DNA from: a virus
Strand: one strand, 5' to 3'
DNA: 41,180 nucleotides
Virus record (IMG/VR): IMGVR_UViG_3300042876_000489
Location: 1-41,180 of that record
Program-made: the position numbers and the translations under genes
The notes under the pieces: generated by a model
Database searches by the model: none
The model's input: the letters and a program-made list of their open reading frames with translations, nothing else
What the model was told of the DNA's origin: nothing
In this document: positions 12,786 to 40,707 of the stretch, in pieces
How positions within the stretch are numbered: the stretch's first letter is position 1
Layout: each line of letters starts with the position of its first letter

Positions 12786-12792
12786 TGTTATT

Positions 12793-12802: not shown

Positions 12803-12816
12803 AGGGTGCGCGGTTT

Positions 12817-12845
12817 ACATTACATCCACGTTTTCTAAATGTCAA
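12817..12845 (-). promoter_or_regulatory. Leftward early promoter candidate
   Basis: On the minus strand a perfect TTGACA (12845-12840) is followed after 17 bp by TAATGT (12822-12817). TGTAAT at a 15-bp spacing is the alternative -10. It overlaps the first codons of the rightward repressor gene, so repressor-gene transcription and early leftward transcription would interfere. It would drive 12785 and the genes down to int. Confidence 0.5.
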
Positions 12846-23281: not shown

Positions 23282-24546
23282 CAGTAGACGCTCAGCTGAT
23301 CGCGGGTCCAGCTGCTGGGCGCGACGATCAGGCGCCGATAGTCGGCGACGGCCGCCCCGTTCGAGCCACCATTCAGCGTGAGCAGCGCGGCGCCGAGCGC
23401 GCTGCGGGCGTTGCTCGCGCTGCTCCACGCCCCGAAGCCGGCGCCCACGTCGAGCCGGCACACGGGTGCGGATCCCCAGTTGGCGAACTGCGCCACCGCA
23501 GTGAACAGTCCGCCGGGCGTGATGGCCTGCCCGGCGACCGGCGTGTTGGGCGTGCCGCGGATCTCCGCGATCACCGACGCGTTCGACACGTACATCTCGG
23601 CACCGTCCGTGTTCGCGCCGATGTTGAGCAGGTTGCCGATGGCGCCGACGCCGAACCCCCACGGGATCGCCGCCGTGATGAGCACCGTGAAGTCGGCCAG
23701 CGTCGCGTTGAACGGGATCGTCAGCGTCGCGGCCGAGCGCGTGAGGGCGGTCCCCGCTTGGGGGATGAAGGAGGATGGATAGCGCGCGTCCTCGGACTGG
23801 ATGCCGCCCAGGTACGCGTTGCCCGTCTGCCCCAGCACGACAACCGGGAGCACGCTCAGTCGGTTGGTGTTGGCGGCCGTGACGCTCGTGCTCGCAAAGG
23901 CCAGCACGTAGCTGCCATCGGCGAGCCGCTGGCTGCCGAGGTACGCACCGTTCGCCATCACGACCGACGGGGCGCCGGCGTTATTCGTGATCGTCGCGCC
24001 CAACCGCTCGACCGCGGCAGTGACGTCATACAGCTGCACGCAGCTGCCTCCCGCTGCCGGCGACGTGCCGGCGCGCCAGTGCGCCAGCACCGACTTCACG
24101 CCGTCGCCGGTGTACGTCAGGTCCTGCCGGTAGTACTCCTGCGCGGCGCCATCGTCGTCGCCAAGGAGATCGAGCACCACCGCGCCCAGCGACGCCGCGG
24201 CCGCCACCCGCGTGGGCGTGCCCACCGCCGTCCAGCTCGTGCCGAAGTCATTCGGCGAGAGCACCACGTTCTTCCGCTGCGGCTCGAGGCGCAGGCCGCG
24301 CGGCGTGAACAGGCCCGTCGCGGCGTCGTACCCGCACGTGAGCTGCGGCGTCGATGCGCCCACCACGTGCACGCGGCCGCGCTGATCCGTCGCTGAGGCG
24401 GTGTTGACCGTGCCCCCGCGTGCGAACGTGGGCGTCTGACCTGAGCGGAAGATCGGGAGGCCGTTGCGATCGAGGCCATCGAGCGCATCGAAGTCCACCC
24501 AGAACGGCGAGGACCGCCCGAGGCGGCCGGCAACAGGCATCGGCAT
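23281..24546 (-). CDS. Tail protein with LamG-like domain, 421 aa
   Basis: The protein contains PRGLRLEPQRKNVVLSPNDFGTSWTAVGTPTRV, a block typical of phage tail and head-associated proteins carrying concanavalin/LamG-like modules. It is followed by a jelly-roll with NRLSVLPVVVLGQTGNAYLGGIQSEDARYPSSFIPQAGTALTRSAATLTIPF. The first ~40 residues (SSPFWVDFDALDGLDRNGLPIFRSGQTPTFARGG) may dock to the tail. It lies between Dit and the hub and is coupled to both by TGATG, so it is a structural tail-tip or receptor-binding candidate. Confidence 0.65.
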   Translation of the reverse strand: MPMPVAGRLGRSSPFWVDFDALDGLDRNGLPIFRSGQTPTFARGGTVNTASATDQRGRVHVVGASTPQLTCGYDAATGLFTPRGLRLEPQRKNVVLSPNDFGTSWTAVGTPTRVAAAASLGAVVLDLLGDDDGAAQEYYRQDLTYTGDGVKSVLAHWRAGTSPAAGGSCVQLYDVTAAVERLGATITNNAGAPSVVMANGAYLGSQRLADGSYVLAFASTSVTAANTNRLSVLPVVVLGQTGNAYLGGIQSEDARYPSSFIPQAGTALTRSAATLTIPFNATLADFTVLITAAIPWGFGVGAIGNLLNIGANTDGAEMYVSNASVIAEIRGTPNTPVAGQAITPGGLFTAVAQFANWGSAPVCRLDVGAGFGAWSSASNARSALGAALLTLNGGSNGAAVADYRRLIVAPSSWTRDQLSVY

Positions 24547-25361
24547 CAGAAATAGCCTCGGGGCGCAAATGCCAGCCCGGTCTCGGCGGTGGACAGCTTG
24601 AGCTGCGGGTACCCCGCGCGCAGCGGATCGCCGTCACTGGGGCGCAGCACGAGCCATCCGCCCGCGGTGATCCAGGCGCGTGCGCTCGATCGCACGCCGG
24701 CGGTCGTGACCTTGGTGATGAGCTGCTCGGCGTGATCAATGTCGAGCGACTCGCCAACAAGCAGGGCGCCGGTCAGCGTCATCGAGCCCACGAGCTCGCC
24801 GCCGGCGGTGAGCACCGAGAGCACGCGGCTCGATACGGTACCGCCCGTGGTGTTCGTGATGAGGATGCGGGGCGCGCACGGCGCGCTGCCCAGTGGGATC
24901 GGCACCGGCGTGGAGCCGAATGAGATGGGCGCCGCGAGATCGCCGAGCGCGTAGGCGAGCGGGTCGGGGCAGGTCAGTTTCAGTTGGCACTTTCCACCCT
25001 TCGCGAGGAAGCCCGGGGCCGTGGGCTGCAGCAGCACCGACTGCACCCGGCCATAGCGCGCGCGTGCCGTCAGGTCAATCCGGCGTACTTCGATGGTGCG
25101 CCCGAAGAGGAGCGCGTTGAGCTGGTCCTCCTCGGCAAGTCGCGCGGCCGCCGATGCGGCGAGGATCACGCCATCGAGCGTCATCTCGCGCGCCGGCACC
25201 CGGGCATCCGCCGACGTGAGCTGGGCGCCCATGACGCCCGGCAATTCGACCAGCTGGTCCGTCAGCGTGAAGCCGTTCCACAGATCCGCCGACTCCGACA
25301 TCACGAACCCCAGCGTGCTGAGATCGGTGCCGTCCACGAAGATCATCGTCCGTGCACCCAT
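24546..25361 (-). CDS. Distal tail protein (Dit-like)
   Basis: This is a 271-residue protein right after the tape measure. The sequence TLGFVMSESADLWNGFTLTDQLVELPGVMGAQLTSADARVPAREMTLDGVILAASAAARLAEEDQLNALLFGRTIEVRRIDLTARARYGRVQSVLLQ fits the N-terminal belt domain of Dit proteins. A galectin-like beta half follows (PRILITNTTGGTVSSRVLSVLTAGGELVGSMTLTGALLVGESLDIDHAEQLI). Dit forms the hexameric ring at the tail end on which the hub sits. The start may be MGARTM at 25361 (TGATG) or ATG 25346. Position supports the call strongly. Confidence 0.75.
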   Translation of the reverse strand: MGARTMIFVDGTDLSTLGFVMSESADLWNGFTLTDQLVELPGVMGAQLTSADARVPAREMTLDGVILAASAAARLAEEDQLNALLFGRTIEVRRIDLTARARYGRVQSVLLQPTAPGFLAKGGKCQLKLTCPDPLAYALGDLAAPISFGSTPVPIPLGSAPCAPRILITNTTGGTVSSRVLSVLTAGGELVGSMTLTGALLVGESLDIDHAEQLITKVTTAGVRSSARAWITAGGWLVLRPSDGDPLRAGYPQLKLSTAETGLAFAPRGYF

Positions 25362-28300
25362 CAGCGGCCTACCTCCCCGCGCCCCTGCGCGGTCAAGAGC
25401 GCGACATTCGCGAGGCCAACGTTGATGGCCTCAAGCGCCGCCTGGCCGACGGCCTGACCGCCTTCGCGACCACCCCCGACGGGCCCGTAGAACTGCTGCG
25501 TGAGCTGCACGCGGATCTGAATCAGCTGGCCGCCACTGCCCACGCTGAACGACGAGGGGAGCGACGGCGGCAGAAGCGGCGCGCGCGGCGCGACGGCAGC
25601 GGCCACGAAATCCTTCAGTACGTCCAGCTCCTCGCGACTATAGGCGACGAGTGTGCCGAGCAGTCCGAGCATGCGATCGACCTGCACCACGGTGGCGGTC
25701 TGCACGCCCGTCGACGCGCTGGACACGCCCGCCTCACCGCCGGCGCCAGCCGCCATGCCCGCCTCCGCGCCGGCGCTGGTGGCGGCTGCTGTGGTCTGGG
25801 CGGCGCGCTGCGCGCGCTTCGCGGCCTGCACCTCGGCGAGCTTGGCCAGGAACTCGGGACTCTTGCCAGCCGCTACGGCGTCATCGTACTGCCGCTGGAG
25901 GTCGAGCTCGAATTGCCGCGCATCCGCCGCGTCCGCCTTGCCCTGGGCGCGCAGCAGCTCGACCTCGAGATCCTGCATCTCCCGCTCGGCTTCGATCTTC
26001 TCGCGCGTCGCCTGCGCGGCCGCGTCCGCCGCCTGGGCGAGCGCGAGCAACGCGAGCGTGGTCGCGTCGGCCCCCTTGGCCATCCAGTCGAGGACCTCGC
26101 GCTCACGTTCCAGCGCCTGGCGACGCGCGCGTTCTTCCGGCGTCTCCCCGTTGGCGGCATTGATCCGCGTCTGCAGATCCTCGCGTCCCTGCTGCACCTC
26201 GCGCGCCTTCTGCGCGGCTTCCTCGTCGCGCCGCTTCTTCTGGTCGGCGATGTACTTCTCGCGCTCCGCGCCCAGCAGCGCCTCGAGCTCGGCGAGCTGG
26301 GCCGCGGTGTAGACGCCCCCCGCGCGCGCATCGGCGAGTTCCTTCTCCTGCTGCCTCGCGAACCGAAGCGCGTCGGTCTCCTCGGTCTTGCCGGCCAACG
26401 CCAGCCGCCGTTCGGCGAGTGAGGCGTCGACATCCTTGCGCTTCTCGGCGAGCTCGGCCGCCATCGCCTCCGCGGCCTTGCGGGAGGCGTCGGCGATCAG
26501 ATCGAACTGCTTGATCGCGTCCTCGAGCGCGCGCATCAGCGAGGACTCGAACCCCGCGGGGAACTTCGCCTTTTCCCTGGCGAGCGCGTCCGTAAGCACC
26601 TTCCGCTGACCGCCTTCGTCCTTCGCCAAGAACTCGTCGCGCGTGCCGATCCGGATACCCGGTGACTGCACGAGCAGGTCGAGCATGGCGGTGAGGTCGG
26701 CGCGCTGCTGCTGCACACGATCGCGTTCGCGCTGTTGCTGGTCGGTGAGCCCGCTCCGGCCAATGCGGTCCTGCAGACTCTCGGTAAGCTTGCCGCGCGC
26801 CTCGACCAGCGCCTTCGCGTGCTCCCGCGCTGCCTTGGCCGAACTCACCAGTCCGCTGATGATCGAGGCGGCCGCACCGGCCACGGGCAACCCCGCCCCG
26901 ATCACCGCGCCAAGTCCGCCGGATCCGCTCTCGCCCCGCGTCTTCCACGCGTTGGTCAGCGCGGGGATGTTGGCCGCGATCTGGGCGACGGAACGCAGGG
27001 TGTTGGCCGTCCGCTCGTCCATGAGGCCGAACGCATCGGCCAGCTGCAGTGCACCGTCGACCGCCTGCTGGAGTGCACGCGCCTGATTGAGCAGTTCCTG
27101 CGTGGTGCGCGCCGTCGATGACGTGACACCCTTGTTGGCGTTGGCGACGTCACCGAAACGCAGGCCCAGCGATCGCGCGGCCTCGTCGGTATCCTCGATG
27201 ACCTGCTGCACATCGAGCGCACGCTGCTTCCGGCGCCTCCAGGTCTCGGCTTCCTCCGGCGCCTCGGCGGCAAGTGCTGCCGTGATCTTGCGATCGTAGG
27301 CCAGCGCGATGTCGTCCAGCTTCGTCGCCGTGGAATTCACCAGGTCGTCCGCGAGCTCCTCACGGATCTGGGCCACCGCCTTCTCGCGTGCATCGATCGC
27401 TCGCAGCGCCTGCTCGACCGCGCGCGAGATGGCGGCCGCCTGGCGCTCCAGCGCCTCATCGGCGGCCTTGCCTGCCGCCTTGGCCGCCTCGAGGTCCTTC
27501 GTCACCTGGTCCGCGGTACGCACGCCACCGCTGCCGGTGCCTGCCGGCTTGGAGCCGGGCTTCGGCGCCTTCTCGAGCTTCTCCGCCTCCTGACGCGCGG
27601 CGGCGATGGCACGGTACAGACTGACGAACTGTCCCTCTGCCTGGCCCGTCTCTCGCGACATCGCCTTGATGTTCGTGATGATGCGATCGAGCTGGGCGAC
27701 CGACAACCCGCCGAGATTGAGCTGACCCTGACCGGCGAGGAGATTGGCGTCATACGTCTGCTTTCGGAAATCCTTCGCGCTGACGCCCTTGCCGCTTGTG
27801 GAGAACCCGGTGACCAGCGTGCCGACGTAGCGCTTCCCCTCGATCTGATCCAGCGTGCCGTTGAAGTGATCGAGGATGCCGACGAGTCCCTGGAATTCCT
27901 TGGTGACCGTGGGCAGGATGGTCTGCCCAAGGTCGATCATCGCCGCATTCAGATTGTTCTTGATCGTCTTCCAGCTGTTCTCCGCACTGGCGTTCATCGT
28001 CGCCTGCGCCGTGTTCAGCCTGGCGACGGCATCAGCGGCGAGATCGTAGGTTCCGGCGAGCTTCCGGATCTCCGCTGCGCCTTCGCGCCCGGCCGCCCCA
28101 TACTGCTTCAACTCGCTCGCCGCCTGCTTCGCGTTCATGCCGCGCTCGAGGAGCGCCCCGAGCGCGCGCATGGTCGTCTCGGCATCGAGGCCGAAGTCCC
28201 GCACTGCCGGCGCCGCCGCCTGGAACGCACCAAACAGATCCGTGATCGGCATGCGGTTCTTCGCGGTCGCGTAGAGCTGCGCGAGGAACCCCTCGGCGTC

Positions 28301-28783
28301 ATCCGCGGACAGGCCGAACATATCCATCGCCTGGTCGAGCCCGCCGATGATGCCCGTCAAATCCTCGCCGGTGGCATCCGCGACCTTCGTGACGATGGCG
28401 AGCCGCTTCTGGACCTCTTCGATGGAGTTGCCACCTTGACGGGCGATCTCCGCGGCCGCTCCCGCGAGCTCCGCCTGACTGCGCGGTCCCGCCAGCGACA
28501 TCTCGCGGATCGTGTCACGCAGCTGCGTCATCTGCGCCGTCGTGCCCGGCACGCGCGCCTCGACCTTCCGCAGCTCACTCTCCACCTGCTCGGCCATCTT
28601 CGCGGCGGCAATGCCGACGCCGAGCATCGCCGCGCTGATGGCGCCGACGGCGGCGACGGGATGCGCCTTCACATAAGCGGCGAGCTTTCCGAACTGGCCT
28701 TCCGCGTCCTTGAGGTCGCGATCCAACCCCTCGGTGCTGGCCCGAAGATCGTAGAAGAGCTCTGCGAGCTTGCCGCGCGCCAT
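25361..28783 (-). CDS. Tape measure protein, 1140 aa
   Basis: This is a long Ala/Glu/Arg-rich helical protein that sets tail length and is ejected with DNA. The N-terminal core (MARGKLAELFYDLRASTEGLDRDLKDAEGQFGKLAAYVK, residues 1-39) is followed by a hydrophobic segment HPVAAVGAISAAMLGVGIAAAKMAEQ. The phage tape-measure domain (AGAAAEIARQGGNSIEEVQKRLAIVTKVADATGEDLTGIIGGLDQAMDMFGLSADDAEGFLAQLYATAKNRMPITDLFGAFQAAAPAVRDFGLDAETTMRALGAL) matches the TP901-type core. A second hydrophobic stretch lies near the middle (GLGAVIGAGLPVAGAAASIISGLVSSA). The start overlaps the upstream stop as TAATG. At about 0.15 nm per residue a tail near 170 nm is expected. Confidence 0.93.
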   Translation of the reverse strand: MARGKLAELFYDLRASTEGLDRDLKDAEGQFGKLAAYVKAHPVAAVGAISAAMLGVGIAAAKMAEQVESELRKVEARVPGTTAQMTQLRDTIREMSLAGPRSQAELAGAAAEIARQGGNSIEEVQKRLAIVTKVADATGEDLTGIIGGLDQAMDMFGLSADDAEGFLAQLYATAKNRMPITDLFGAFQAAAPAVRDFGLDAETTMRALGALLERGMNAKQAASELKQYGAAGREGAAEIRKLAGTYDLAADAVARLNTAQATMNASAENSWKTIKNNLNAAMIDLGQTILPTVTKEFQGLVGILDHFNGTLDQIEGKRYVGTLVTGFSTSGKGVSAKDFRKQTYDANLLAGQGQLNLGGLSVAQLDRIITNIKAMSRETGQAEGQFVSLYRAIAAARQEAEKLEKAPKPGSKPAGTGSGGVRTADQVTKDLEAAKAAGKAADEALERQAAAISRAVEQALRAIDAREKAVAQIREELADDLVNSTATKLDDIALAYDRKITAALAAEAPEEAETWRRRKQRALDVQQVIEDTDEAARSLGLRFGDVANANKGVTSSTARTTQELLNQARALQQAVDGALQLADAFGLMDERTANTLRSVAQIAANIPALTNAWKTRGESGSGGLGAVIGAGLPVAGAAASIISGLVSSAKAAREHAKALVEARGKLTESLQDRIGRSGLTDQQQRERDRVQQQRADLTAMLDLLVQSPGIRIGTRDEFLAKDEGGQRKVLTDALAREKAKFPAGFESSLMRALEDAIKQFDLIADASRKAAEAMAAELAEKRKDVDASLAERRLALAGKTEETDALRFARQQEKELADARAGGVYTAAQLAELEALLGAEREKYIADQKKRRDEEAAQKAREVQQGREDLQTRINAANGETPEERARRQALEREREVLDWMAKGADATTLALLALAQAADAAAQATREKIEAEREMQDLEVELLRAQGKADAADARQFELDLQRQYDDAVAAGKSPEFLAKLAEVQAAKRAQRAAQTTAAATSAGAEAGMAAGAGGEAGVSSASTGVQTATVVQVDRMLGLLGTLVAYSREELDVLKDFVAAAVAPRAPLLPPSLPSSFSVGSGGQLIQIRVQLTQQFYGPVGGGREGGQAVGQAALEAINVGLANVALLTAQGRGEVGR

Positions 28784-29667
28784 TAGTCGTCACCGTCCTG
28801 CGCGGCCACGCGCGCACGTTCGACCGCCTCGTGCTTCGCGTTCGCGGAGAGATGCACCTGCGCCAGCACCTCGCCGAGAGTCCAGTCGCGGAGGAGGGTG
28901 CTGACCGGCACGCTCATCTCGGCCGCCACCGTGCTGGCGAAGACCGACCATGACGCGCGGGGGGCGTCCGCCCCGTCGGCGCGCTGGCTGGGCAGCAACG
29001 CCGACAGCGCGCGCAGCCGTCCGCCGTTCACGTCCTGGAACCGGCGCACCACGCCCACGACGTCACGCGGGTCGAGCGCGGACAGCCACGCCGGCGCCGT
29101 CGGCCGTGGATCCCGATAGGGATCGAACGGCAGCCACGGCCCGTCGCTCGTGGCCACCCAGACGAGCAGGGTGTTCTGGTACGCGACCTCGACGACCACC
29201 CGCTCGAGCAGCGCGGCGTCGTCATCCGCGGCGCGCGCGCGCAGCTGCTGGTGGGCATCCACGAGCCGCGCGAGCAGCAGGTCCTTCTCGTGGAACCAGA
29301 ACAGCGCGTCCAGTCCCTTGGGGTAGACCACGAGCTGCAGCGGCACGCCGTGACTGCCGGCCGCGACCGGCTCGAGCGTCTCGGGCGCGCGGCGTAGCGC
29401 GCGCAGGATGATCTGCTCCGGATCCTCGGTCTGTGTGCCGCCGCGCGGCCCCGTCGTGCTGCCCATGCGGGCGTTGAAGGCCACGAGGTTCGCATGGTAG
29501 TGCAACCACCCCCACGTGCCGCGATCGGGGTTCTCGGCGCCGCCAGGGCGCACCGCGCGCACTTCCGCCTCGGTCGCGGATCCCGAGGATTCCACGACCG
29601 AGGCGAGGATCTTGCACTTCTCGCGGAGATCCGCGAGGCGAAACGTCCGTCGCTGCGTGGGCGCCAT
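28783..29667 (-). CDS. Tail assembly chaperone-position protein, 294 aa
   Basis: This gene occupies the slot between tail tube and tape measure where siphoviruses encode the tail assembly chaperone pair (lambda gpG/gpGT). Its helical sequence (APTQRRTFRLADLREKCKILASVVESSGSA ... DALFWFHEKDLLLARLVDAHQQLRARAADDDAALLERVVVEVAYQNTLLVWVATSDGPWLPFDPYRDP) has no family I can name. There is no second small overlapping frame with a slippery site, so the usual programmed frameshift seems absent. ATG 29667 is preferred. A GTG at 29697 would put the start inside a hairpin. Its stop overlaps the tape measure start as TAATG. Confidence 0.5.
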   Translation of the reverse strand: MAPTQRRTFRLADLREKCKILASVVESSGSATEAEVRAVRPGGAENPDRGTWGWLHYHANLVAFNARMGSTTGPRGGTQTEDPEQIILRALRRAPETLEPVAAGSHGVPLQLVVYPKGLDALFWFHEKDLLLARLVDAHQQLRARAADDDAALLERVVVEVAYQNTLLVWVATSDGPWLPFDPYRDPRPTAPAWLSALDPRDVVGVVRRFQDVNGGRLRALSALLPSQRADGADAPRASWSVFASTVAAEMSVPVSTLLRDWTLGEVLAQVHLSANAKHEAVERARVAAQDGDD

Positions 29668-29692
29668 CGACCACCCGTCGTCTGGCGTCCGT

Positions 29693-29739
29693 GTCACCGG
29701 TCCCCCGCGGTGCCTCAGCGGGGGGGCTTAGCCGGTGAC
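29693..29739 (-). terminator. Two-tier hairpin after the second tail tube gene
   Basis: The outer stem is GTCACCGG (29693-29700) with CCGGTGAC (29732-29739). The inner stem is CCCCCGC (29702-29708) with GCGGGGG (29718-29724). It begins 8 bp downstream of the tail tube stop and before the chaperone start. There is no U-run, so it is more likely a partial terminator or 3' stabiliser that lowers downstream expression relative to the tail tube. Confidence 0.6.
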
Positions 29740-29747
29740 GGCTGGGG

Positions 29748-30494
29748 TTAGTCGATCTCGGCGAACGAGACCGCGTGCGTGGGCGTCAGCCGGATCGGGA
29801 TCATGGCCGCCTTCCCGCGCGCGAGGGCCTGCTCCACCGCGGTGTAGTCGAGCTCGCAGCCCCACGCCTGCATGAGGAGCACGCGCCCGTCCTTCCGGGT
29901 GCCGTTCACGTACCAGCAGAGATCGTTCTGTTCCTTGAGCTTCGTGCCGTCGATGAAGGCGCGATTGGGGTCCGCCTGCGAGCCGGCGCCGAGGATGTTG
30001 GCGTTCGTGTCGAGCATGCCGAGTGCCGACATGACGTTCTCGAGGTTGAACCCGAGCACCGAGAACTCAACCGTGATCTTCGCGTAGCTCATCAGCTGTG
30101 CGAGCCAGAGTCGACGGTTGGCGGCGTGCACGTCTTCGCTCGTCACGGCGAGGTTGTACTTCACGCCGTCCTGGGCGAGGTGCCCAAACGAGACCTGCGT
30201 CTGCTCGACCGCGGGATCGCCGACCACCACCGCGCGGTGCAGCGGATAGCGCGGCGTGATCGCATTGACCGCGATAGAATCGACCTGGCTGATCTCCGGG
30301 TAGTTGTCGAGCGCGCGCAGGCGATAGAAGTCGCCGATCGCGAAGTTCGTGCCGGATGCCACGTTGTGTACGTTGTAGGTGCCGATCGCCGGCAGCGTGG
30401 AGGCGATCGTCGAACTGCCACCGCCCGCGGTGTCCCGGAAGACCCCCACGTCGGTGATGTGGGCGAAGAGTTCACCCTTGAGATTGCGCCGCAT
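29748..30494 (-). CDS. Tail tube protein paralogue 2, 248 aa
   Basis: The sequence MRRNLKGELFAHITDVGVFRDTAGGGSSTIASTL opens like its upstream neighbour. It later has VLGFNLENVMSALGMLDTNANILGAGSQADPN, LKEQNDLCWYVNGTRKDGRVLLMQAWGCELDYTAVEQALARGKAAMIPIRLTPTH. These match segments of the 30567-31316 protein (LLGYNVENLALAHGMLE, NILGAGTTAQP, GARKDGKTVRITAMGCEMDL, ARGSKLALPVKAKVF). Both are tail tube-type proteins by position and fold pattern. A ribosome site GGAG lies 8 bp before the ATG, so it is translated independently. A hairpin follows the gene. Confidence 0.7.
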   Translation of the reverse strand: MRRNLKGELFAHITDVGVFRDTAGGGSSTIASTLPAIGTYNVHNVASGTNFAIGDFYRLRALDNYPEISQVDSIAVNAITPRYPLHRAVVVGDPAVEQTQVSFGHLAQDGVKYNLAVTSEDVHAANRRLWLAQLMSYAKITVEFSVLGFNLENVMSALGMLDTNANILGAGSQADPNRAFIDGTKLKEQNDLCWYVNGTRKDGRVLLMQAWGCELDYTAVEQALARGKAAMIPIRLTPTHAVSFAEID

Positions 30495-30566
30495 CGGATG
30501 CTCCGGTGTCGGTGGTGAGGATCAAGCCGGGCGGCCGGCGCACGCGGCGCCAACCGCCCCGCGCGG

Positions 30567-31316
30567 TTACCAGGACTCGTACAGCACGCCGGCGAACACC
30601 TTGGCCTTCACCGGCAGCGCGAGCTTCGACCCGCGCGCCAACTGGAACGACAGCCCCGCCAGATCCATCTCGCATCCCATGGCGGTGATGCGCACCGTCT
30701 TCCCGTCCTTGCGGGCGCCGGTGAAGACCCAGCCCGCATCGAGCTGCTCGCCGAACTTCGACGCGTCCATGCGCAGCACGCGCGGCTGCGCGGTGGTGCC
30801 GGCGCCGAGGATGTTGGACTCGAGCATGCCGTGCGCGAGCGCCAGATTCTCGACGTTGTAGCCGAGCAGACCGAAGGCGATGGCGATGTCGAGGTATCCC
30901 GTCTGCTGCGCGAAGAGCATCCGCTGCACCGCCGAATTCACGTCGTCGACGTTACCGCGGAACGAGATCGTCAGGCCGCCGTCATCGATGTGCCCAGGAT
31001 CCGTGAGGGCCTGCTGAACCGTCGCGTCGCCGATCGCATGCGCGAACTGCAGCGGCGTGGCGTTATCGAGCGTGATCGTGGTCCCCACCGGCGCGGTAGA
31101 CCCGTGAATACGGACGAACTCGGCGGTCTCGCCGGCGCCCACACGGATCGTCTGGCCGACGGCGAAGTTGGTAATCGCGGCCACGGTGAGGCTGACGGCA
31201 CCGGCCGCCGCCGCCGCGGTGAGCGACGTGCTGCCGAACGTCCCAGTGGCGTCGCGGACCGCCTGCACCTGCGTCAGGTGGCTCCAGAGTTCCTTCTTGT
31301 TGTTGAGCCGGGCCAT
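30567..31316 (-). CDS. Tail tube protein paralogue 1, 249 aa
   Basis: The protein begins MARLNNKKELWSHLTQVQAVRDATGTFGSTSLTAAAAAGAVSLTVAAITNFAVGQTIRVG. It shares the central GYNVEN...LE-NILGAG and C-terminal KDGK....MGCEMDL and ARGSK..LPVK motifs with the next gene. It has a strong GAGGAG ribosome site 7 bp before the ATG and a 39-bp gap after the tail terminator gene, consistent with high expression. Which paralogue forms the main tube, or whether they alternate or cap, cannot be told from sequence. Confidence 0.72.
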   Translation of the reverse strand: MARLNNKKELWSHLTQVQAVRDATGTFGSTSLTAAAAAGAVSLTVAAITNFAVGQTIRVGAGETAEFVRIHGSTAPVGTTITLDNATPLQFAHAIGDATVQQALTDPGHIDDGGLTISFRGNVDDVNSAVQRMLFAQQTGYLDIAIAFGLLGYNVENLALAHGMLESNILGAGTTAQPRVLRMDASKFGEQLDAGWVFTGARKDGKTVRITAMGCEMDLAGLSFQLARGSKLALPVKAKVFAGVLYESW

Positions 31317-31355
31317 GGATGGCTCCTCGGTGGGTGGTCGGGTGAAGAGGTCGGA

Positions 31356-31808
31356 CTACAGGGTCATGGTCAGCGCGACCGTGAGGTGCGCGTAGTGCAC
31401 GTTGCGGGTGCCCTGGCGTGGGGCGTCGGGGCCGTCTGGTTCTTCGTCGCCGTCGTCGCGGGTGAGTTGGAGTGGCGCGCCGTCGACGCTCTGCGCGGCT
31501 AGTGCGCTGGCCGTGTAGCCGTCCTCGATCGCGTCGAGCAGCTCGTGCACCGTGCGATCCGCGTCATTGCCGGCCGCGACGGCGGTGAAGCGTACAGAAC
31601 CCTCGCGCGCGTCCCGGTCCTCGCCGGTCTGCGTGAACGACCCGATGCGGTACACGATCACGGGTAGCACGGACTCCTCGAGCGTCGACCAGGTGACGCA
31701 ATTGCTCGTGTCGTTGCGGCCCGTGATGGACCGCACGGCGGCGAGTGCGTTCACGATCGCGCAGGTGGCCTCACGCAGGCGCTGGATCTGATCGGCATGC
31801 GGCGGCAT
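31356..31808 (-). CDS. Tail terminator-like protein, 150 aa
   Basis: The start MPPHADQIQRLREATCAIVNALAAVRSITGR at 31808 fits TGATG with the gp10-like stop. The middle has WSTLEESVLPVIVYRIGSFTQTGEDRDAREGSVRFTAVAAGNDADRTVHELLDAIEDGYTAS, a strand-helix pattern that resembles DUF3168/tail completion proteins. It stands between the gp10-like gene and the tail tube, the normal place of the tail terminator, which stops tube growth and joins tail to head. Assignment is from order and size. Confidence 0.6.
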   Translation of the reverse strand: MPPHADQIQRLREATCAIVNALAAVRSITGRNDTSNCVTWSTLEESVLPVIVYRIGSFTQTGEDRDAREGSVRFTAVAAGNDADRTVHELLDAIEDGYTASALAAQSVDGAPLQLTRDDGDEEPDGPDAPRQGTRNVHYAHLTVALTMTL

Positions 31809-32356
31809 CAGGCGCCCCTCGCGAGTTTCTTCGAGACACGGCGGCCCAGCTCGGCGACCATGACCTCCGTCATCTGATCCTTGCATGCGGCAAGCGCCGG
31901 CTCGAAGGACGGGCGGGGCTCGATCACGAGCTTGCGAGGCGAGAACAGCGTGGCGACGCGTCCAGACCTGCCGGCCCGGGCCTTGCCCGTCTTGCGGGCT
32001 GGCTTGGCATCGGCCACGACGCCGAGCTCAAGCAGCCGCAGCTTGAAGTCGTCCGTGCCCACGCGCCGAAAACCATCGACTGCGGCGTTCTTGACCGAGC
32101 GGCGCGCGCGCCCTGACTGCAGGTGCGGAGACTGGCCGGGCTGGGAGGGTGTGCCGCCGTAGGTGCGGCGCGTCTTCAACGACGTGCGGCGACCCGGCGC
32201 GGCGACACTCAACTGCTTGCGGATGGCGTTTTGCAGCACGCGCGCCGCCCCCTTCACGGCATCACTATCCGCCCCCGTCAACGTGCGCGTGGCAGCGACC
32301 AGCTGGCGGTGGGCCATGCTGATCTCGCGCTGCACGGAGCTGGCGCCGCGGGCCAT
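31808..32356 (-). CDS. HK97 gp10-like head-tail / tail completion protein, 182 aa
   Basis: The start MARGASSVQREISMAHRQLVAATRTL at 32356 follows a TGATG overlap. The sequence GAARVLQNAIRKQLSVAAPGRRTSLKTRRTYGGTPSQPGQSPHLQSGRARRSVKNAAVDGFRRVG contains the PGQSPHLQSG+L+ pattern of HK97 gp10-like proteins (G-PP...TG-L-.S). The C-terminal half has KLVIEPRPSFEPALAACKDQMTEVMVAEL, the RPFL-PAL helix of the same family. These proteins act at the neck during tail joining. Confidence 0.78.
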   Translation of the reverse strand: MARGASSVQREISMAHRQLVAATRTLTGADSDAVKGAARVLQNAIRKQLSVAAPGRRTSLKTRRTYGGTPSQPGQSPHLQSGRARRSVKNAAVDGFRRVGTDDFKLRLLELGVVADAKPARKTGKARAGRSGRVATLFSPRKLVIEPRPSFEPALAACKDQMTEVMVAELGRRVSKKLARGA

Positions 32357-32730
32357 CAGGCGAACGTCTCCGTCGTGCGCACGAGCGGGTGCTCCGCGTG
32401 CGTGCTGCGCGCGCCGGGGGCGCCGAAGTCCAACGAGGACTGCCCGGTCACGCGATAGCGTTCGCCGGCGCGCGCGCCCGCGGTCACGATGATCCCATCG
32501 TCCGGACGGAGGGGGACGCCAGGCAGCACGAAGATGCGCGCTTCGACCCGAGTCTCCTGCCCATACAGCCGCTGCGCCAGCTCGGCCGTCGGCGTGTCGA
32601 TGAACGCCGCGACCTTGGTCGCCACGGCCGCCCATCCCTGATTGGTGGCCCCGCCGGCCGATTGCGTGCGCGTCGCGCGCATGATCGTCACGGCGGTGCC
32701 GCTCCGCTGGATGATGCCGGCGAGGCTCAT
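32356..32730 (-). CDS. Head closure (head-tail stopper) protein, 124 aa
   Basis: The start MSLAGIIQRSGTAVTIMRATRTQSAGGATNQGW at 32730 is set by ATGA with the connector stop. The sequence continues VAAFIDTPTAELAQRLYGQETRVEARIFVLPGVPLRPDDGIIV-type beta segments with GERYRVTGQ, a small barrel typical of SPP1 gp16/HK97 gp9-like stoppers. It comes after the connector and before the gp10-like gene, as expected. The assignment rests on order plus fold pattern. Confidence 0.68.
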   Translation of the reverse strand: MSLAGIIQRSGTAVTIMRATRTQSAGGATNQGWAAVATKVAAFIDTPTAELAQRLYGQETRVEARIFVLPGVPLRPDDGIIVTAGARAGERYRVTGQSSLDFGAPGARSTHAEHPLVRTTETFA

Positions 32731-33311
32731 ACGCGCGACACCCAGCAGGCGGCGATACCCGCGTGCCACTCGGGCTGATCCTCGAGCACTCTCGCGAGGT
32801 CAGTGCTGTACCCGCCCAGCCGCTCGGTCCGCGCGTCCTCTGAACCGCGCTGGCGATACACGGCCGCCGCGCCCCGCAAGACCGCGAGCCGCGCCGGGGC
32901 GGGGAAGTGGTCAGCCGTCGTGTAGACCACCTGGACATAGCGCGGCTGGTCCAGCTCGCCGAATACGCCGCCGTCGACGCGCATGATCCGCTCGCCGTTC
33001 GCCCCCCAGACGAGCACCGACTTGTCAGCCACATCGAGCGTCTCCTCTGGCGCGGCCGCGTTGTAGCCGAGCGTCACGCTCGTGAGTGCACTGATCGGAT
33101 AGTCGAGAAACAGCGCGCTCGATCCCGTTCCGTCCCGCACTTCCGTGCGCACGGCGGACGCCATAAAGGGACGCTCGTGCCGGTTGCAGGCCGCCTCGAA
33201 CAGCGACTGCACCACGTCGATCAGGGCTAGCAGCACGTCCTCGTCGGTCCCCTCAGGGACGTTCAGGAACGCCTGTAGCTCCTCGACCGGCACGAGCTGA
33301 CTGCGCGCCAT
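32727..33311 (-). CDS. Head-tail connector protein (gp6-like), 194 aa
   Basis: The sequence VPVEELQAFLNVPEGTDEDVLLALIDVVQSLFEAACNRHERPF is the helical opening of gp6-like head-tail connectors. It is followed by a beta part (SALFLDYPISALTSVTLGYNAAAPEETLD...) and a helical end (LAVLRGAAAVYRQRGSEDA). These proteins form the ring below the portal. The ATG is 3 bp after the previous stop. Confidence 0.8.
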   Translation of the reverse strand: MARSQLVPVEELQAFLNVPEGTDEDVLLALIDVVQSLFEAACNRHERPFMASAVRTEVRDGTGSSALFLDYPISALTSVTLGYNAAAPEETLDVADKSVLVWGANGERIMRVDGGVFGELDQPRYVQVVYTTADHFPAPARLAVLRGAAAVYRQRGSEDARTERLGGYSTDLARVLEDQPEWHAGIAACWVSRV

Positions 33312-33653: not shown

Positions 33654-34091
33654 TCAGGCCGTGCCTTCGGCCGGCGAGTTCAGGTACTTCGCCGCGATCA
33701 CCGTGGCGTCATGCGTCGGCGGCGCCTTGCGCCCCTTGTACTGGATGGCGATGATGCCGTCGAGGACCGCGTTCGCCGTACCGCGCACGAACACCGCGCG
33801 CACGTACCGCTCGCGCGGGCGGTAGACGTCGACCACCGCGGTGCCGTCGCTCCCCGTGTCGGGAATCGACGCGAGCGACCCTTCGAGGTCCGCCGCATCC
33901 GAGAGGTTGGCGGCCTGCCCCTGCTGGGCCTTCAGGCCCGTGACCGCCGTGGCGGTGAGGGCGCCCACGGCGCCGACGAACAGCACGCCGTCGTAGCCCG
34001 ACATGTCAAGCACCGAGCTGTTCTGCACGGTGGTGCCGGCCGCGACCGCGGCCAGCACCCGCGTGATCTTGATGTTCTTGCCGATGTTCAT
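33654..34091 (-). CDS. Putative head decoration / capsid-associated protein, 145 aa
   Basis: The sequence MNIGKNIKITRVLAAVAAGTTVQNSSVLDMSGYDGVLFVGAVGALTATAVTGLKAQQGQAANLSDAADLEGSLASIPDTGSDGTAVVDVYRPRERYVRAVFVRGTANAVLDGIIAIQY is a small beta-rich protein found, from memory, just after the capsid gene in many siphoviruses. It has its own AGGAG site, and a hairpin follows it, both signs of high expression. A stoichiometric capsid decoration or stabilising role is inferred from position. It is not proven. Confidence 0.62.
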   Translation of the reverse strand: MNIGKNIKITRVLAAVAAGTTVQNSSVLDMSGYDGVLFVGAVGALTATAVTGLKAQQGQAANLSDAADLEGSLASIPDTGSDGTAVVDVYRPRERYVRAVFVRGTANAVLDGIIAIQYKGRKAPPTHDATVIAAKYLNSPAEGTA

Positions 34092-34119
34092 GGAGTGCTC
34101 CTGGCGAAAGACCGGGGGA

Positions 34120-34151
34120 GGCCGCGCGCCCGATGATCCGGGCGCGCGGCC
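34120..34151 (-). terminator. Very strong hairpin after the major capsid gene
   Basis: GGCCGCGCGCCCG (34120-34132), loop ATGATC, CGGGCGCGCGGCC (34139-34151). This is a perfect 13-bp GC stem, the strongest one noticed in the window. It lies 6 bp after the capsid stop. No U-run follows, so rho-independent termination is uncertain. Partial termination or protection of the capsid mRNA 3' end fits. Confidence 0.75.
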
Positions 34152-34157
34152 GCGAGA

Positions 34158-35417
34158 CTAGCCGAGCTTCACGCGGGCGAACGCCTCGCCAAGCACCGGC
34201 TGGCCGTCCGTTTCCTTCCGCACGATGAAGCCGGTCTGGTTGGTCGTGGCGAACAGCTCGACGAGCCGCTGCACCTGCAGGTCGAGCGCGTCGGCGATCC
34301 AGTAATACGTGAGGTCGCCGATGAAGCCGACGTACTTGCCCGTGGTGAACGTGTTCGGGATGTACTCCGACATGAACACCGGCACGCCGAGCAGCCGGTC
34401 CGGCTCGCCGATCTGCGTGGAGGGCTCCCACAGGTAGCGGTTCTGGGAGTCCTTGAGCTTCGAGATCTGCAGCACACCATCGCGGTGGAAGCCCCACACG
34501 GCCTTCTTCAGGTACCCCGCCTTGAGGGCGAACTTCGCATTGCGCAGGCCGTCCATCGTGACCGCGGTCGCCGCATTGTCGGTGGCGACGTCGCGCGTCG
34601 TGGGGATGCCGTCCGCCGAGGCCGTGAAGATGCCGAGCGGCTGACCGGCGCCGGATCCGGTGAGGAAGCCCTTCTCCTCGGGGATCGCGACCTTGTACGC
34701 CATGCGCTCCATGACCAGGCTGTCGATGTTGAGCATCGACGCGCGCATGAGCTTGTTCGACACCTTGATGAGCTTCGCCAGCGGGTGCGGACGCAGCTCG
34801 CGCTTGCCGAACGCCATCGTCGAATCCTCGCCGCCGACGGCCAGCTCCGACGTCCAGTCGGCATCCGCCGGATCGGCGTCAAGCGACACCGCGCCCAGCG
34901 CCTCCGCCGTCACGACCGGGCGGACCGTGCCGAACTTGCGGATGAACACGAGGTCATCGACCGCGCGGATGAGGTCCTGGACGAACTGCACCGGCGCGAC
35001 CGTGTAGCCACCGTTCCCGCCCGCGACCGCGTCAAGCGCGCGGATCTCACCAGTAGCCAGGAAGTGGCGGAAGTTCTCGCCGTACTCCGACGTGGCGCGC
35101 CGCAGCGCCCCAGCGTCCTTGGTGCGCAACGCGTAGCGATGCTCCTTCGCATCGATCGCGCGAACCTCGCGCACGGCCGTGTTCGGCTCGCCGTTCCCCG
35201 GCAGCGAGCGCTGGCCGCCGATCTCGCCCTCGAGCGCCGCCTGGCGCTCATGCCGCTCGATCGTCGAGCGGAGCGCGTCCTGGTCGGTGAACGCGGCGTC
35301 GTAGTTCGCCTGCTCTTCGGCGTTCAGGCCGCGCTTCTCGCTCGACGCCTTGTCGAGGATCGCGCGCATTTGCGCGGCGAGCGCGGCGCGCTTGTCCAGC
35401 ATGTCCCGCAGCTTCAT
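34158..35417 (-). CDS. Major capsid protein, HK97 fold
   Basis: This is a 419-residue protein. The first ~100 residues (KLRDMLDKRAALAAQMRAILDKASSEKRGLNAEEQANYDAAFTDQDALRSTIERHERQAAL) are the helical delta-domain that acts as scaffold and is removed by the protease. The mature part starts around the region after GGQRSLPGNGEPN. It contains GNGGYTVAPVQFVQDLIRAVDDLVFIRKFGTVRPVV, ADADWTSELAVGGEDSTMAFGKRELRPHPLAKLIKVSNKLMRASMLNIDSLVMERM and GTGAGQPLGIF-type text (LTGSGAGQPLGIFTAS), the P-domain and spine of the Phage_capsid family. The start ATG 35417 has GGAGG 9 bp upstream. A strong hairpin follows. Confidence 0.93.
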   Translation of the reverse strand: MKLRDMLDKRAALAAQMRAILDKASSEKRGLNAEEQANYDAAFTDQDALRSTIERHERQAALEGEIGGQRSLPGNGEPNTAVREVRAIDAKEHRYALRTKDAGALRRATSEYGENFRHFLATGEIRALDAVAGGNGGYTVAPVQFVQDLIRAVDDLVFIRKFGTVRPVVTAEALGAVSLDADPADADWTSELAVGGEDSTMAFGKRELRPHPLAKLIKVSNKLMRASMLNIDSLVMERMAYKVAIPEEKGFLTGSGAGQPLGIFTASADGIPTTRDVATDNAATAVTMDGLRNAKFALKAGYLKKAVWGFHRDGVLQISKLKDSQNRYLWEPSTQIGEPDRLLGVPVFMSEYIPNTFTTGKYVGFIGDLTYYWIADALDLQVQRLVELFATTNQTGFIVRKETDGQPVLGEAFARVKLG

Positions 35418-35676
35418 GGTGACGGACCTCCGATTGGGCGATCGGAGATCACGCCAGCAACGCAACGGCGCGGACCGCCGACCGCGTGAGTGGACACTCA
35501 CGACGTGTCAGGCAGGGTCCGCGCCGCATCGGCGTCGCGTCAGTCTGCGTCCGCGCGCGGGAGGTGGGCAGGCATCGGCCTCCGTGATTCCCCCGCGCGC
35601 GCTTTCCCATCAGTTCAGACGGTACGATAACACCGTCAAGTGTGGTCTGGGGCTCGTCTAGCGCCTCGGTGCGGAG
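35418..35676. other. 259-bp gap before the capsid gene (possible promoter)
   Basis: This is the longest non-coding stretch in the late operon. It contains the inverted repeat GACGGT...ACCGTC (about 35619-35638). On the minus strand a TTGACG overlaps that repeat and could be a -35, but a good -10 was not found. It may hold a separate promoter or an mRNA leader for the capsid. Only the GGAGG site directly before 35417 is clear. Confidence 0.35.
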
Positions 35677-35916
35677 CTACTCCGGGGCCTCGGTGAAGTC
35701 GAGATAGAACTTCTGGCCCGGCGCGATCTTCCCGAGCAGCGCCGGGTTGGTGATCATCATCTGCAGCGAGCCGCTCGGCGAGTAGCGCGCGAACGTGTTG
35801 TCCTCGCTCTCCCCGTTGGGGCCAAACGGCGTCTTGCCCGTGACGCACTGCAGCTTGACCTGCTCGCCGTGCTGGAACTTCTCGACACTCGCCACCTGCA
35901 TCTTCGCGCGCATCAT
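35677..35916 (-). CDS. Conserved small phage protein between protease and capsid, 79 aa
   Basis: The sequence MMRAKMQVASVEKFQHGEQVKLQCVTGKTPFGPNGESEDNTFARYSPSGSLQMMITNPALLGKIAPGQKFYLDFTEAPE matches the form of a small protein seen in many siphoviruses near the capsid gene (MRAK-+--SV ... F-++TPSG---M-I-NPA....F-PG--YY-DFT-A). Function is unknown. It could be an accessory head protein. A strong GGAGGAG ribosome site lies 6 bp before the start (ATG 35916 or 35913). Confidence 0.75.
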   Translation of the reverse strand: MMRAKMQVASVEKFQHGEQVKLQCVTGKTPFGPNGESEDNTFARYSPSGSLQMMITNPALLGKIAPGQKFYLDFTEAPE

Positions 35917-35951
35917 GCGGTACTCCTCCGTGTGAGACTGTGTGAACCCGA

Positions 35952-36611
35952 CTACAACCCTGCGGCAATCAGATCGACCTCGCGCCGGCGGAGATCCATC
36001 GCATGCTGCCAGGCGTCGGGATCCGACAGCGCTTGCTCGCCCTGGCGCGCGATGGCCTCCAGCGAACGTCGCCCTTCCTCGGCGATCAGCGTGAGCGATC
36101 CACGCACCCCCGAGTCCGCCTCCGGGTAGGCGGGGAACGTCACCGGGCTCACATCCCACAGGCGCTTCACCTTGAGGACCGTGCGCACCATGATGCCGTC
36201 GCGCGTCTCCCACTTGTCGTCCAGCGTGGAGAACTGGAAGGACGACTGATTCACGTCGCCGCGACGCATGCTGATGACGAGGTCGCGCGCGTAGGTGGTC
36301 TCCGGCGGCTGGATCTCCATGCGCAGCCCCTTGTCATCCTCTTCGATGAGCATCGTCGGCTCAGGCTTCGCGCGGTTCCGCCCGAGAATCATGTTCGGGT
36401 CGTGGTTGAACAGGGCCCGCACATCATCCGTGCGGATGGCGTCAGCGAAGGCGCCGGGCGCGATGATCTCGCGGAAGCCGCCGAGGTTCTCGCTGAGCGA
36501 GTTGAAGACGGCGGCATGGCCAACGATGCGGGGGAGGCCCTGAGCGCCCCCCTCGGGATCGACGAGCCGCAGCTCGTCGAAGTCGAAGATGCGGAATTCA
36601 CGCAGCAACAT
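35952..36611 (-). CDS. Prohead protease (HK97 gp4 / S78 family)
   Basis: This is a 219-residue protease that cuts the capsid delta-domain and itself during head maturation. The catalytic His is in VRALFNHDPNMILGR, with the typical (L)xNHDxxxxLG pattern. The catalytic Ser is in DVNQSSFQFS. VSPVTFPAYPEADSG gives the conserved SPVTFPAYP end of the core. The C-terminal part is acidic or basic helices. The start MLLREFRIFDFDEL at 36611 overlaps the end of the portal gene by 14 bp. Confidence 0.92.
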   Translation of the reverse strand: MLLREFRIFDFDELRLVDPEGGAQGLPRIVGHAAVFNSLSENLGGFREIIAPGAFADAIRTDDVRALFNHDPNMILGRNRAKPEPTMLIEEDDKGLRMEIQPPETTYARDLVISMRRGDVNQSSFQFSTLDDKWETRDGIMVRTVLKVKRLWDVSPVTFPAYPEADSGVRGSLTLIAEEGRRSLEAIARQGEQALSDPDAWQHAMDLRRREVDLIAAGL

Positions 36612-38349
36612 GGGCAGGTCCTCGATGCGACAGGGTGGAGAGGATCGCCGTGCGCTCGCGCTGCGCGGCGTCAGTGGCGCGGGTAGACTCCCACGCGGTG
36701 AACAGGGCAAGTAGGGCGTCGCGACCTTCCGCGGCCGCCGCGGTCACGGCCGTGCGAGCGGCGCCGCCCTCGCGCTCGACCGCCGCAGCGACGAGGGCGC
36801 GAGCCAGCGCTTCGCTGCCGGCGCCGTCGGCAGCGGTCGTGACCATGCGCAGCACCGGGAGCAGCCGCTCGGTCAGCGTCGCCTGGTGTTCACGCCAGAA
36901 CGCCTCGTGCCAGGCGACGAACTCGGTGACGTCCGACGAGCGCTCGAGCTGCCGGCGACTGGCCAGCAGCTCCTTCCGCAGCGCGCGACCCAGCGCATCA
37001 GTGAGCACCGGGATGGACGCGGCCAGCAGTCGGGCATGCAGGTCCTCCTCATCCTCACCGTCGCCCGCGCTGCCGTTGCCATCACCGGTACCGTCGGCGG
37101 GACCATCCCCGCCGTCCGGCATCGGCTCCTTCGTGCCAGGCGCACCAGACTTCGGGGTGGCCATGTTCAGCGGCTGGAGGTAGATGCTCCCCTGGCCGTT
37201 CGGCAGCGGGTTCATGTTCTCGATCTCGCGCACCTCATCGGCTGACAGCCAGCCCCCCGTCCGCCCCACGTTGTAGGCGTCGTATCGCGTCTTCATGTCA
37301 CCGCGCAGCAGCCCGTCCACGAGGAACTCAAAGAAGTACGTCCCGCGCTCGCGCTCGAGAAGCAGCGCCTTGTTCAACCGCTGCTCCATGCGGACGAGGC
37401 GCGCGCGCAGTGACCAGATGACGAACTCGATGCCCTGGTGTTCGATGTTGCTGAACGTGGCGCGGTCCATGCTCTTGAGCATGTGCGGCGGCAAATCGAA
37501 GATCCGCGCGATCTCCTCGATCTGGAACTTCCGGGTCTCGATGTACTGCGCGTCCCGGCGCGACATCGTGAGCGACTGCCACTCCAGCCCCTCCTCGAGG
37601 ATCGCCGGCTTCCAGGCATTGCCGCTGCCGGCAAAGCGCGCCTCCCACGAGTCCTTGAGGCGCTGGTACGCCTGGTCGCTGAGCTTGGCCTTGTGCTTGA
37701 GCACGCCGCCCGGCGTGGCATCGTTCGAGTAGAACTTTGCCGTGTGCTCCTCGGCGGCGAGCGCCACGCCGATCGCCTCACGCGCCACCTCGATCGTGCC
37801 CTTGCCCACATAACCATCCGACGAGAACCCGCGAAAGTGCAGGATCTCGTCCTCTCGGAAGGTGAGCATTCCGCCCTGGCGCGTCTGGTACCGATACCAG
37901 ACGGTGTCGTCGGGAGCGATCACGAGCGTGATGCGATCAGGGTGCAACGGCGGGAGGGCCTGTACCACGCCGCGGCGGTCCGCGTCGATCACGGCATACG
38001 CGTTCCCACGCAGCTCGAGATGGCCGGCCAGCATTTCCCGCCACTCGAAGCTGGTCAGCCGATCGGTGGGCGCATCGTGCAGCAAGCGGTAGAGGGGATG
38101 GTCCACCGCCCGATCCTTTCCACCGCCTGGTCGTCGCTGATACAGGATGAGCGGCAGGCCGGCGATGGCCCCCGACAGGATGCGGACGGCGTTCCAGACC
38201 GCGGTATTGGTCAGCGCGGTCTCGGCGTTCACCGTCTGCCCCGTGGCGGATCGGCGGCCGCCGAGCATGGTCAGCAACCACTGCTCGGGCGTGGCGATGC
38301 CACTCTGGGCCGCGCGACGGGCGACGAAGGAGCTCAGGGGTCCAGGCAT
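36598..38349 (-). CDS. Portal protein (HK97 gp3 family), 583 aa
   Basis: The portal forms the 12-fold ring through which DNA is packaged and leaves. Typical segments are NTAVWNAVRILSGAIAGLPLILYQRR, HPLYRLLHDAPTDRLTSFEWREMLAGHLELRGNAYAVIDADRRGVVQALPPLHPDRI, EDEILHFRGFSSDGYVGKGTIEVAREAIGVALAAEEHTAKFYSNDATPGGVLKHK and IEEIARIFDLPPHMLKSMDRATFSNIEHQGIEFVIWSLRARLVRMEQRLN. The ~170-residue C-terminal part after PDGGDGPADGTGDGNGSAGDGEDEED is longer than in lambda-size relatives, acidic then helical. The ATG at 38349 lies 3 bp after the previous stop. Confidence 0.95.
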   Translation of the reverse strand: MPGPLSSFVARRAAQSGIATPEQWLLTMLGGRRSATGQTVNAETALTNTAVWNAVRILSGAIAGLPLILYQRRPGGGKDRAVDHPLYRLLHDAPTDRLTSFEWREMLAGHLELRGNAYAVIDADRRGVVQALPPLHPDRITLVIAPDDTVWYRYQTRQGGMLTFREDEILHFRGFSSDGYVGKGTIEVAREAIGVALAAEEHTAKFYSNDATPGGVLKHKAKLSDQAYQRLKDSWEARFAGSGNAWKPAILEEGLEWQSLTMSRRDAQYIETRKFQIEEIARIFDLPPHMLKSMDRATFSNIEHQGIEFVIWSLRARLVRMEQRLNKALLLERERGTYFFEFLVDGLLRGDMKTRYDAYNVGRTGGWLSADEVREIENMNPLPNGQGSIYLQPLNMATPKSGAPGTKEPMPDGGDGPADGTGDGNGSAGDGEDEEDLHARLLAASIPVLTDALGRALRKELLASRRQLERSSDVTEFVAWHEAFWREHQATLTERLLPVLRMVTTAADGAGSEALARALVAAAVEREGGAARTAVTAAAAEGRDALLALFTAWESTRATDAAQRERTAILSTLSHRGPAHVAA

Positions 38350-38352
38350 GGG

Positions 38353-38526
38353 CTAGCCTCCGGCAGAGGAGCGGCGGACCGAAATGTCGACGGACAGCCA
38401 TCCAAGGAAGAGCAACAAGGCCCCGCACGCGATCAGGCCCAGCGCACGGGAGAACGTCCACACGCCGGCGATGATCGTCACCAGGCCGGCAAACATCAGG
38501 AACTCAGAGAGGAGGCTGCGCGCCAT
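38353..38526 (-). CDS. Small two-helix membrane protein, 57 aa
   Basis: The sequence MARSLLSEFLMFAGLVTIIAGVWTFSRALGLIACGALLLFLGWLSVDISVRRSSAGG has two hydrophobic helices (about 9-24 and 29-46) and a short basic tail. Small two-helix proteins are often found between terminase and portal in HK97-type phages. Their function is unknown, though head-membrane assembly or lysis have been suggested. It lies 11 bp after the terminase stop and 3 bp before the portal start. Confidence 0.65.
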   Translation of the reverse strand: MARSLLSEFLMFAGLVTIIAGVWTFSRALGLIACGALLLFLGWLSVDISVRRSSAGG

Positions 38527-38537
38527 GGTCGGTTCGG

Positions 38538-40202: not shown

Positions 40203-40209
40203 CGGACGC

Positions 40210-40707
40210 TTAGGCCAGGAGACGCGGCTTGTCGAACTTGAGGAAGTCACGAGCCTTGTCCTTCTGCTTCGGGGGGTCGGGGAGCTTGATGGCGGTGCGT
40301 GCACTCGGCGTGAAGCCGAACTCCGCGCTGAACGCCTTGATCTGCTGCATGGCCTTGTTCGCGATCGCGACCTCTGGTCGCGCCATCTCGTACAGCGTAC
40401 CGGCCTTGCTCTCGAACTCCATCGTGAGGCCGTACTTGTCGAGCTGTGCCTGCGCGAGTTTGAACGTCGCCCACGCCTGGCAGTAGCACGCGAGCGCCGC
40501 GCGATCGACGCGCGTAAGCAGGTTGAGCGCCTGCAGCTCCGGGACGATGCGATCCCACTCGGCGCGCGCGTCGCTGTTCAGGAAGTCGGGACACGCGGGG
40601 ACCGCGAGCGCCGGTGTCGGCTCGCGGTCGTTCAGGGCGCGCTTGCCGGGATTGCCCCGGAGCCGCTTCTGCGCAGTGGGTTGCGGCTTCGGGCCGCGTC
40701 GTCCCAA
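40210..40707 (-). CDS. terS: Terminase small subunit (P27 family), 165 aa
   Basis: The protein is MGRRGPKPQPTAQKRLRGNPGKRALNDREP, then PACPDFLNSDARAEWDRIVPELQALNLLTRVDRAALACYCQAWATFKLAQAQLDKYGL, then EVAIANKAMQQIKAFSAEFGFTPSARTAIK. This is the P27-type small terminase pattern (GRKP-.....L-GNPGK+.l, ...L....eF-G-TP-sR---...). It recognises the packaging site and starts the cut together with TerL. The start is a TTG at 40707 with a strong GGAGGAG ribosome site 6 bp upstream. It lies right downstream of a hairpin cluster that may be the packaging signal. Confidence 0.9.
   Translation of the reverse strand: MGRRGPKPQPTAQKRLRGNPGKRALNDREPTPALAVPACPDFLNSDARAEWDRIVPELQALNLLTRVDRAALACYCQAWATFKLAQAQLDKYGLTMEFESKAGTLYEMARPEVAIANKAMQQIKAFSAEFGFTPSARTAIKLPDPPKQKDKARDFLKFDKPRLLA

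Follow-up and report, generated by a model that had tools for sequence, protein, structure and literature searches.

The DNA analysed here (the window) is a complete IMG/VR virus record of 41,180 bases, the right half of which carries a block of head and tail genes on the minus strand. The block runs from the small and large terminase genes through the portal, protease and major capsid protein genes, two small genes, the adaptor and the neck genes to g176, and continues with P0001, P0002, g304, the tape measure gene and the gene of the distal tail protein, Dit (Table 1). P0001 and P0002 are transcribed in that order. The sequence-only reading had placed ORFs of 249 and 248 residues here, and both exist on the minus strand with exactly the ends that it gave; they are two separate, complete ORFs, each with its own start and stop and each running full length without an internal stop. 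The two genes that flank the pair, g176, whose true start is probably the ATG at 31808, and g304, have no family match in PHROG, Pfam or NCBIfam.

Table 1. Positions in the window of the tail-tube-like pair, of regions within the two proteins and of neighbouring genes.
Feature	Coordinates	Strand	Basis
P0001, first tail-tube-like paralogue	31316-30567	minus	249 aa ORF and translation
P0002, second tail-tube-like paralogue	30494-29748	minus	248 aa ORF and translation
Putative beta-module of P0001, residues 27-105	31002..31238	minus	30.7% identical to P0002; profile matches
Putative beta-module of P0002, residues 26-100	30195..30419	minus	aligned to PDB 9n71_B 94-205 and phrog_28493 102-158
Presumed tube core of P0001 (residues 106-249), containing all shared motifs	30570..31001	minus	38.6% identical to P0002
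Presumed tube core of P0002 (residues 101-248), containing all shared motifs	29751..30194	minus	alignment and motif positions
Head-tail adaptor (precedes the tail genes)	32727..33311	minus	phrog_442, E 7e-16
g176, likely tail terminator by position	31356..31886	minus	
g304, likely tail assembly chaperone by position, between P0002 and tape measure	28783..29697	minus	
Tape measure protein, 1140 aa	25361..28783	minus	phrog_28, E 1e-19; PF10145, E 4.8e-14
Distal tail protein (Dit)	24546..25361	minus	phrog_33, E 1.6e-11

P0001 and P0002 are, beyond doubt, true paralogues that arose from an old gene duplication. A BLASTP comparison of the two gives 132 bits (E = 1e-42) with 35% identity over 238 aa, and the local alignment score of 337 lies far outside that of 1000 shuffles of P0002 (mean 34, SD 5.3, maximum 61; z = 57), which bears out the paralogy claimed from the sequence beforehand. 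The shared order of motifs that had been described is likewise present, with all nine strings found: GYNVEN at residue 152 of P0001 and GFNLEN at 148 of P0002, NILGAG at 168 and 166, KDGK at 203 and KDGR at 201, MGCEMDL at 213 and WGCELDY at 211, and ARGSK at 227 and ARGKA at 225. The proteins align end to end and no added exterior domain separates them. The duplication must be old, since DNA identity, codon by codon, is just 55.6%; when P0001 was searched against the whole 41,180-base record, the only matches were itself and P0002. Third-position GC content (GC3) is 0.90-0.91 in both genes, similar to that of the capsid gene. The ATG of each is preceded by an SD-like stretch, GAGG/GGAG, so that each plausibly has its own ribosome-binding site. 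One copy might be a relic that persists by chance and is scarcely expressed, a reading for which the lack of found relatives, in which both copies could be seen to be conserved, leaves room. Nevertheless, this is very unlikely for either gene: both are full length without stops, their GC3 is like that of the capsid gene, and the same motifs have been kept in both since the old duplication.

The position of the pair, above all, makes it highly likely that P0001 and P0002 are tail-tube proteins. Both genes lie between the neck and terminator genes and the tape measure gene, with the adaptor and neck genes upstream and the tape measure and Dit genes downstream, and an order of neck, tube gene and tape measure is given for siphophages in a published account (PMC5513430). 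A weaker pointer is phrog_117, annotated as major tail protein, which reached E 0.051 with P0001 in the search of the full library and which, when run in six frames against the 41,180-base record alone, matched P0001 and nothing else (14.2 bits, E 3.9e-4); P0002 has no phrog_117 match. Searches of Pfam and NCBIfam with either protein returned nothing, and a profile built from 54 major-tail-protein ORFs of head relatives did not match the pair (probability 0.1%). Thus the tail-tube identity proposed in the sequence-only reading is upheld by gene position and, weakly, by phrog_117; it draws no support from structure, AlphaFold2 models from the two-row alignments having a pLDDT of 32.9 and 32.8 for the two paralogues, which is uninformative on fold. 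It is possible that the pair encodes some other tail or neck component that occupies the same position, a reading to which the want of a confident family match and the pLDDT of about 33 lend themselves. We consider this improbable for two reasons: first, it is P0001 to which phrog_117 points, and second, the phage would then be left without a tube gene, the only other candidates between the neck and the tape measure being g176 and g304.

Divergence is unevenly spread along the two proteins, with identity of 48% over residues 1-26, 31% over 27-105, 31% over 106-160 and 43% over 161-237. The second of these regions (residues 27-105 of P0001 and 26-100 of P0002) looks like a small beta-module, which was not visible in the sequence-only reading; its boundaries are our reading of the alignments and are approximate. 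A two-row profile of P0001 and P0002 matched this beta-module in two proteins that are otherwise unlike the pair. The presumed core has no PHROG match of its own, neither in P0001 (residues 106-249) nor in P0002 (as the near-identical stretch 29748-30182). The PDB match, between P0002 and 9n71_B, named 'Tail tube', has an E-value of 5.4e-4 and sets residues 16-124 on 94-205 of 264; as proof of a tube it was rejected, because the aligned stretch is mainly the small, mobile beta-module, which also occurs in otherwise unlike proteins.

No relatives of P0001, of P0002 or of both were found among 2.9 million viral contigs, none of either in 50,697 phage records, and none of P0002, the one protein searched there, in 72,556 plasmid records. 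The motif G[YF]N.EN, searched as a DNA pattern, was present in 13 contigs, none of which encodes a relative as judged from the proteins, and scans with the tape measure and Dit returned no related loci. In draws of genomes the two-row profile had matches in 0/5, 1/398, 2/251, 0/385 and 0/369, an absence of relatives that is weak evidence because the draws are thin; two of the three matches are to the beta-module alone and the third is a 43-residue match within a 428-aa frame. The head genes gave a different result. A capsid scan identified 135 relatives in IMG/VR (80 kept) and seven in genome contigs, and a portal scan 484 (80 kept). In the resulting 166 head-relative loci (87 capsid-relative and 79 further portal-relative), no homologue of P0001 or P0002 was found, and therefore this phage pairs a common head with a rare tail. 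When the tail genes from the adaptor on were compared with the same loci, the adaptor alone was matched, once and weakly (L143, E 3e-4), and none of the tail genes, from adaptor to tail tip, has a clear relative among the 166. The record thus has a sharp mosaic border near 33,311, between the head genes (33654-40707), with hundreds of relatives in IMG/VR, and the tail genes (20696-33311).

The usual description of a siphophage tube is a stack of a single protein, and the view in the sequence-only reading that one tail tube gene is the norm among siphoviruses is fair as a generality; among head relatives with a detectable major tail protein, however, two genes are present in at least 9 of 29 records. 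The sample was drawn from 105 loci with a capsid gene, which hold 95 distinct capsid proteins, 50 of them with at least 5 kb downstream; 46 are virus records, the genome-contig loci L083, L086, L088 and L089 being excluded. Profiles phrog_158 and phrog_10528 were run on the 46. The former matched in 24, twice in L021 and L035, and the latter in eight, twice in L005, L073, L074, L080 and L179; L025 and L185 had one match in this search and a second gene identified through phrog_9522 or phrog_4574. A major tail protein was detected in 29 of the 46 records, with two copies in at least nine and one in 20, and none was detected in 17. The proportion of 9/29 is a lower bound, the second profile missing families such as that of P0001 and P0002, and it is no unbiased rate, because the profiles were picked after the first pairs had been seen.

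Eight of the nine pairs are adjacent, those of L035 being separated by other ORFs, and L088, outside the 46, also has a pair. The pairs lie mostly upstream of the tape measure gene and in most of them the first copy is the longer. In L005, L025, L073, L074, L080, L088 and L185, the first copy is of about 235-245 aa, belongs to phrog_9522 and carries a C-terminal module of about 100 aa, and the second is a plain copy of about 135-150 aa belonging to phrog_4574 or phrog_10528. In L021, a 242-aa copy with an insert is followed by a 144-aa copy without it (50% identical), in L179 there are two short copies alike at E 1e-57, and in L035 the first copy has a long tail of repeats. The pairs of L021 and L179 look like separate duplications, because each pair closely resembles itself. 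All these pairs have in common with P0001 and P0002 the same head module and the presence of two tail-tube genes; they differ in belonging to other tail families, with no detectable similarity to P0001 or P0002, and in consisting mostly of one long and one short copy.

Two features of the long copies may be recorded. In L005, L025, L073, L074, L080, L088 and L185, the long tail-tube proteins have a C-terminal module that matches small proteins encoded directly after the major capsid gene in other loci (L006:2902-3285, L007:5394-5777, L009:1285-1659 and L042:11282-11713; E 6e-5 to 7e-4). The module of L088 also matches phrog_5707, to which the post-capsid gene of the window itself (34091-33654) belongs. 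This raises the possibility that one decoration-like module is used on both capsid and tail; the window's post-capsid protein is not itself among the direct module matches, none of the 19 overlapping its 65 relatives. In L035, the ORF at 12763-13929 encodes an N-terminal domain that resembles a tail-tube protein; behind it come several repeats, almost identical and each about 37 residues long, which look like a beta-propeller.

Phages with two or three tail-tube genes are already known, and two or more major tail proteins are described in actinophages (PMC11080557, PMC13313380, PMC10652937). Multiple major tail proteins are given for Microbacterium phage Damascus of cluster EL, and for clusters AM, AU, AW, BI, CC and DJ (PMC11080557). 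The Damascus proteins gp17 (286 aa), gp19 (609 aa) and gp20 (255 aa), all annotated as major tail protein, are paralogous over the N-terminal 215 aa or so, at 42-51% identity. As with P0001 and P0002, these are neighbouring paralogous tail-tube genes between the terminator and the tape measure; the Damascus copies, however, differ by C-terminal extensions, whereas P0001 and P0002 are equal in length and layout, and no sequence similarity above chance was found between the two sets. In the Rhodococcus cluster CB phages Peregrin, Grayson and Weasels2, the published description reports related putative major tail subunits, two or three in number, with 52% identity in Peregrin and Grayson, and its authors call these subunits odd and say that the presence of all of them in virions is not known (PMC13313380). 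Compared by description alone, these phages resemble ours in having more than one related putative tube subunit per phage and differ in their non-canonical gene order, with copies apart (genes 70 and 81). The tail of SPP1 holds gp17.1 and gp17.1* at 3:1 by translational frameshift, the long form carrying an added FN3 domain (PMC8718954). SPP1 thus offers a parallel, a single tail that contains the tube protein in two forms, to what is proposed here for P0001 and P0002, and it differs in that one frameshifted gene, instead of two genes of equal length, gives rise to the two forms. P0001 and P0002 also differ from most known pairs by being alike in length and layout. JBD30 was considered as a further phage with two tail-tube proteins and was then dropped.

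It is suggested that P0001 and P0002 are two tail-tube proteins, derived from the old duplication, that are built together into one tail of a long-tailed temperate phage, a reading whose chances we judge to be evenly balanced. From the observed paralogy, the intact genes and their position by the tape measure gene, we infer the tube fold, the presence of both proteins in virions, their mixing and a benefit from it. Both proteins would be made as virion proteins and each would form rings of the ordinary kind that stack up around the tape measure protein. Both could enter the same tail through the ring and stacking surfaces that they would have kept at the N-terminus and in the C-terminal core; drift or specialisation would have affected the beta-module and other parts. 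The likely outcome would be a tube that combines two kinds of subunit, as the SPP1 tail does with gp17.1 and gp17.1*, here achieved with two genes instead of a frameshift. In favour of such a tube are the paralogy, the intactness of both genes, the gene order, the phrog_117 match of P0001, the SD-like sites and the parallels in at least 9 of 29 records and in Damascus. The regional identities (48, 31, 31 and 43%) agree with shared ring surfaces and are no demonstration of them, because residues 106-160, which lie outside the module, are equally diverged.

Instead of both forming the tube, one paralogue may do so and the other form a special end ring that links the tube with the terminator or with Dit. 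This is the main rival to a two-subunit tube and is, on balance, unlikely. T4 has tube-related end proteins, gp48 and gp54, which provide a precedent, and the similar length of P0001 and P0002, together with divergence along their whole length, would suit a protein that had acquired a new partner. However, candidates for the terminator and for Dit are already present in the record, and in the head relatives an extra domain usually distinguishes the second copy by its presence or absence, which is more like surface variation than an end ring. A further scenario, that the phage makes alternative tails with one paralogue at a time, or holds one as a spare with which to escape host defences that sense the tail tube, such as DSR2, has only a slight probability. 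DSR2 recognises phage tail-tube proteins (PMC11087589, PMC10981675), and a diverged second copy would let the phage escape sensing of this kind; yet the two genes belong to a single block on the same strand, each has its own SD-like site, no switch was seen, and no DSR2 is in evidence.

A wider reading is possible, albeit doubtful: two-product tubes would be a repeated design in this head lineage, reached by several duplications in unrelated tail modules with one paralogue free to vary on the outside, and P0001 and P0002 would be an orphan pair that shares an inserted module and acts as a defined mixture, or an alternation, of full-length subunits. The repeated retention of two diverged tube genes would mean either that tubes of mixed composition are widespread and of use to the phage or that a particular position among the rings requires a protein of its own. 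The pairs described above, in particular the adjacent long and short pairs and the equal-length P0001 and P0002, are concrete material for deciding between a mixed tube and such a ring protein.

Elsewhere in the record, a 638-aa protein (8322-10238, minus strand), which has no relative in the phage records, weakly matches the tyrosine-integrase family PF00589 (E 0.006, below the Pfam cut-off), which suggests a temperate phage. Downstream of the tail genes, a 472-aa protein (17689-19107, minus strand) matches over its first 80 residues PF09206, the alpha-L-arabinofuranosidase B catalytic domain (E 4e-10), and is possibly a glycan-binding or glycan-cutting part of the tail, or a lectin-like fold.
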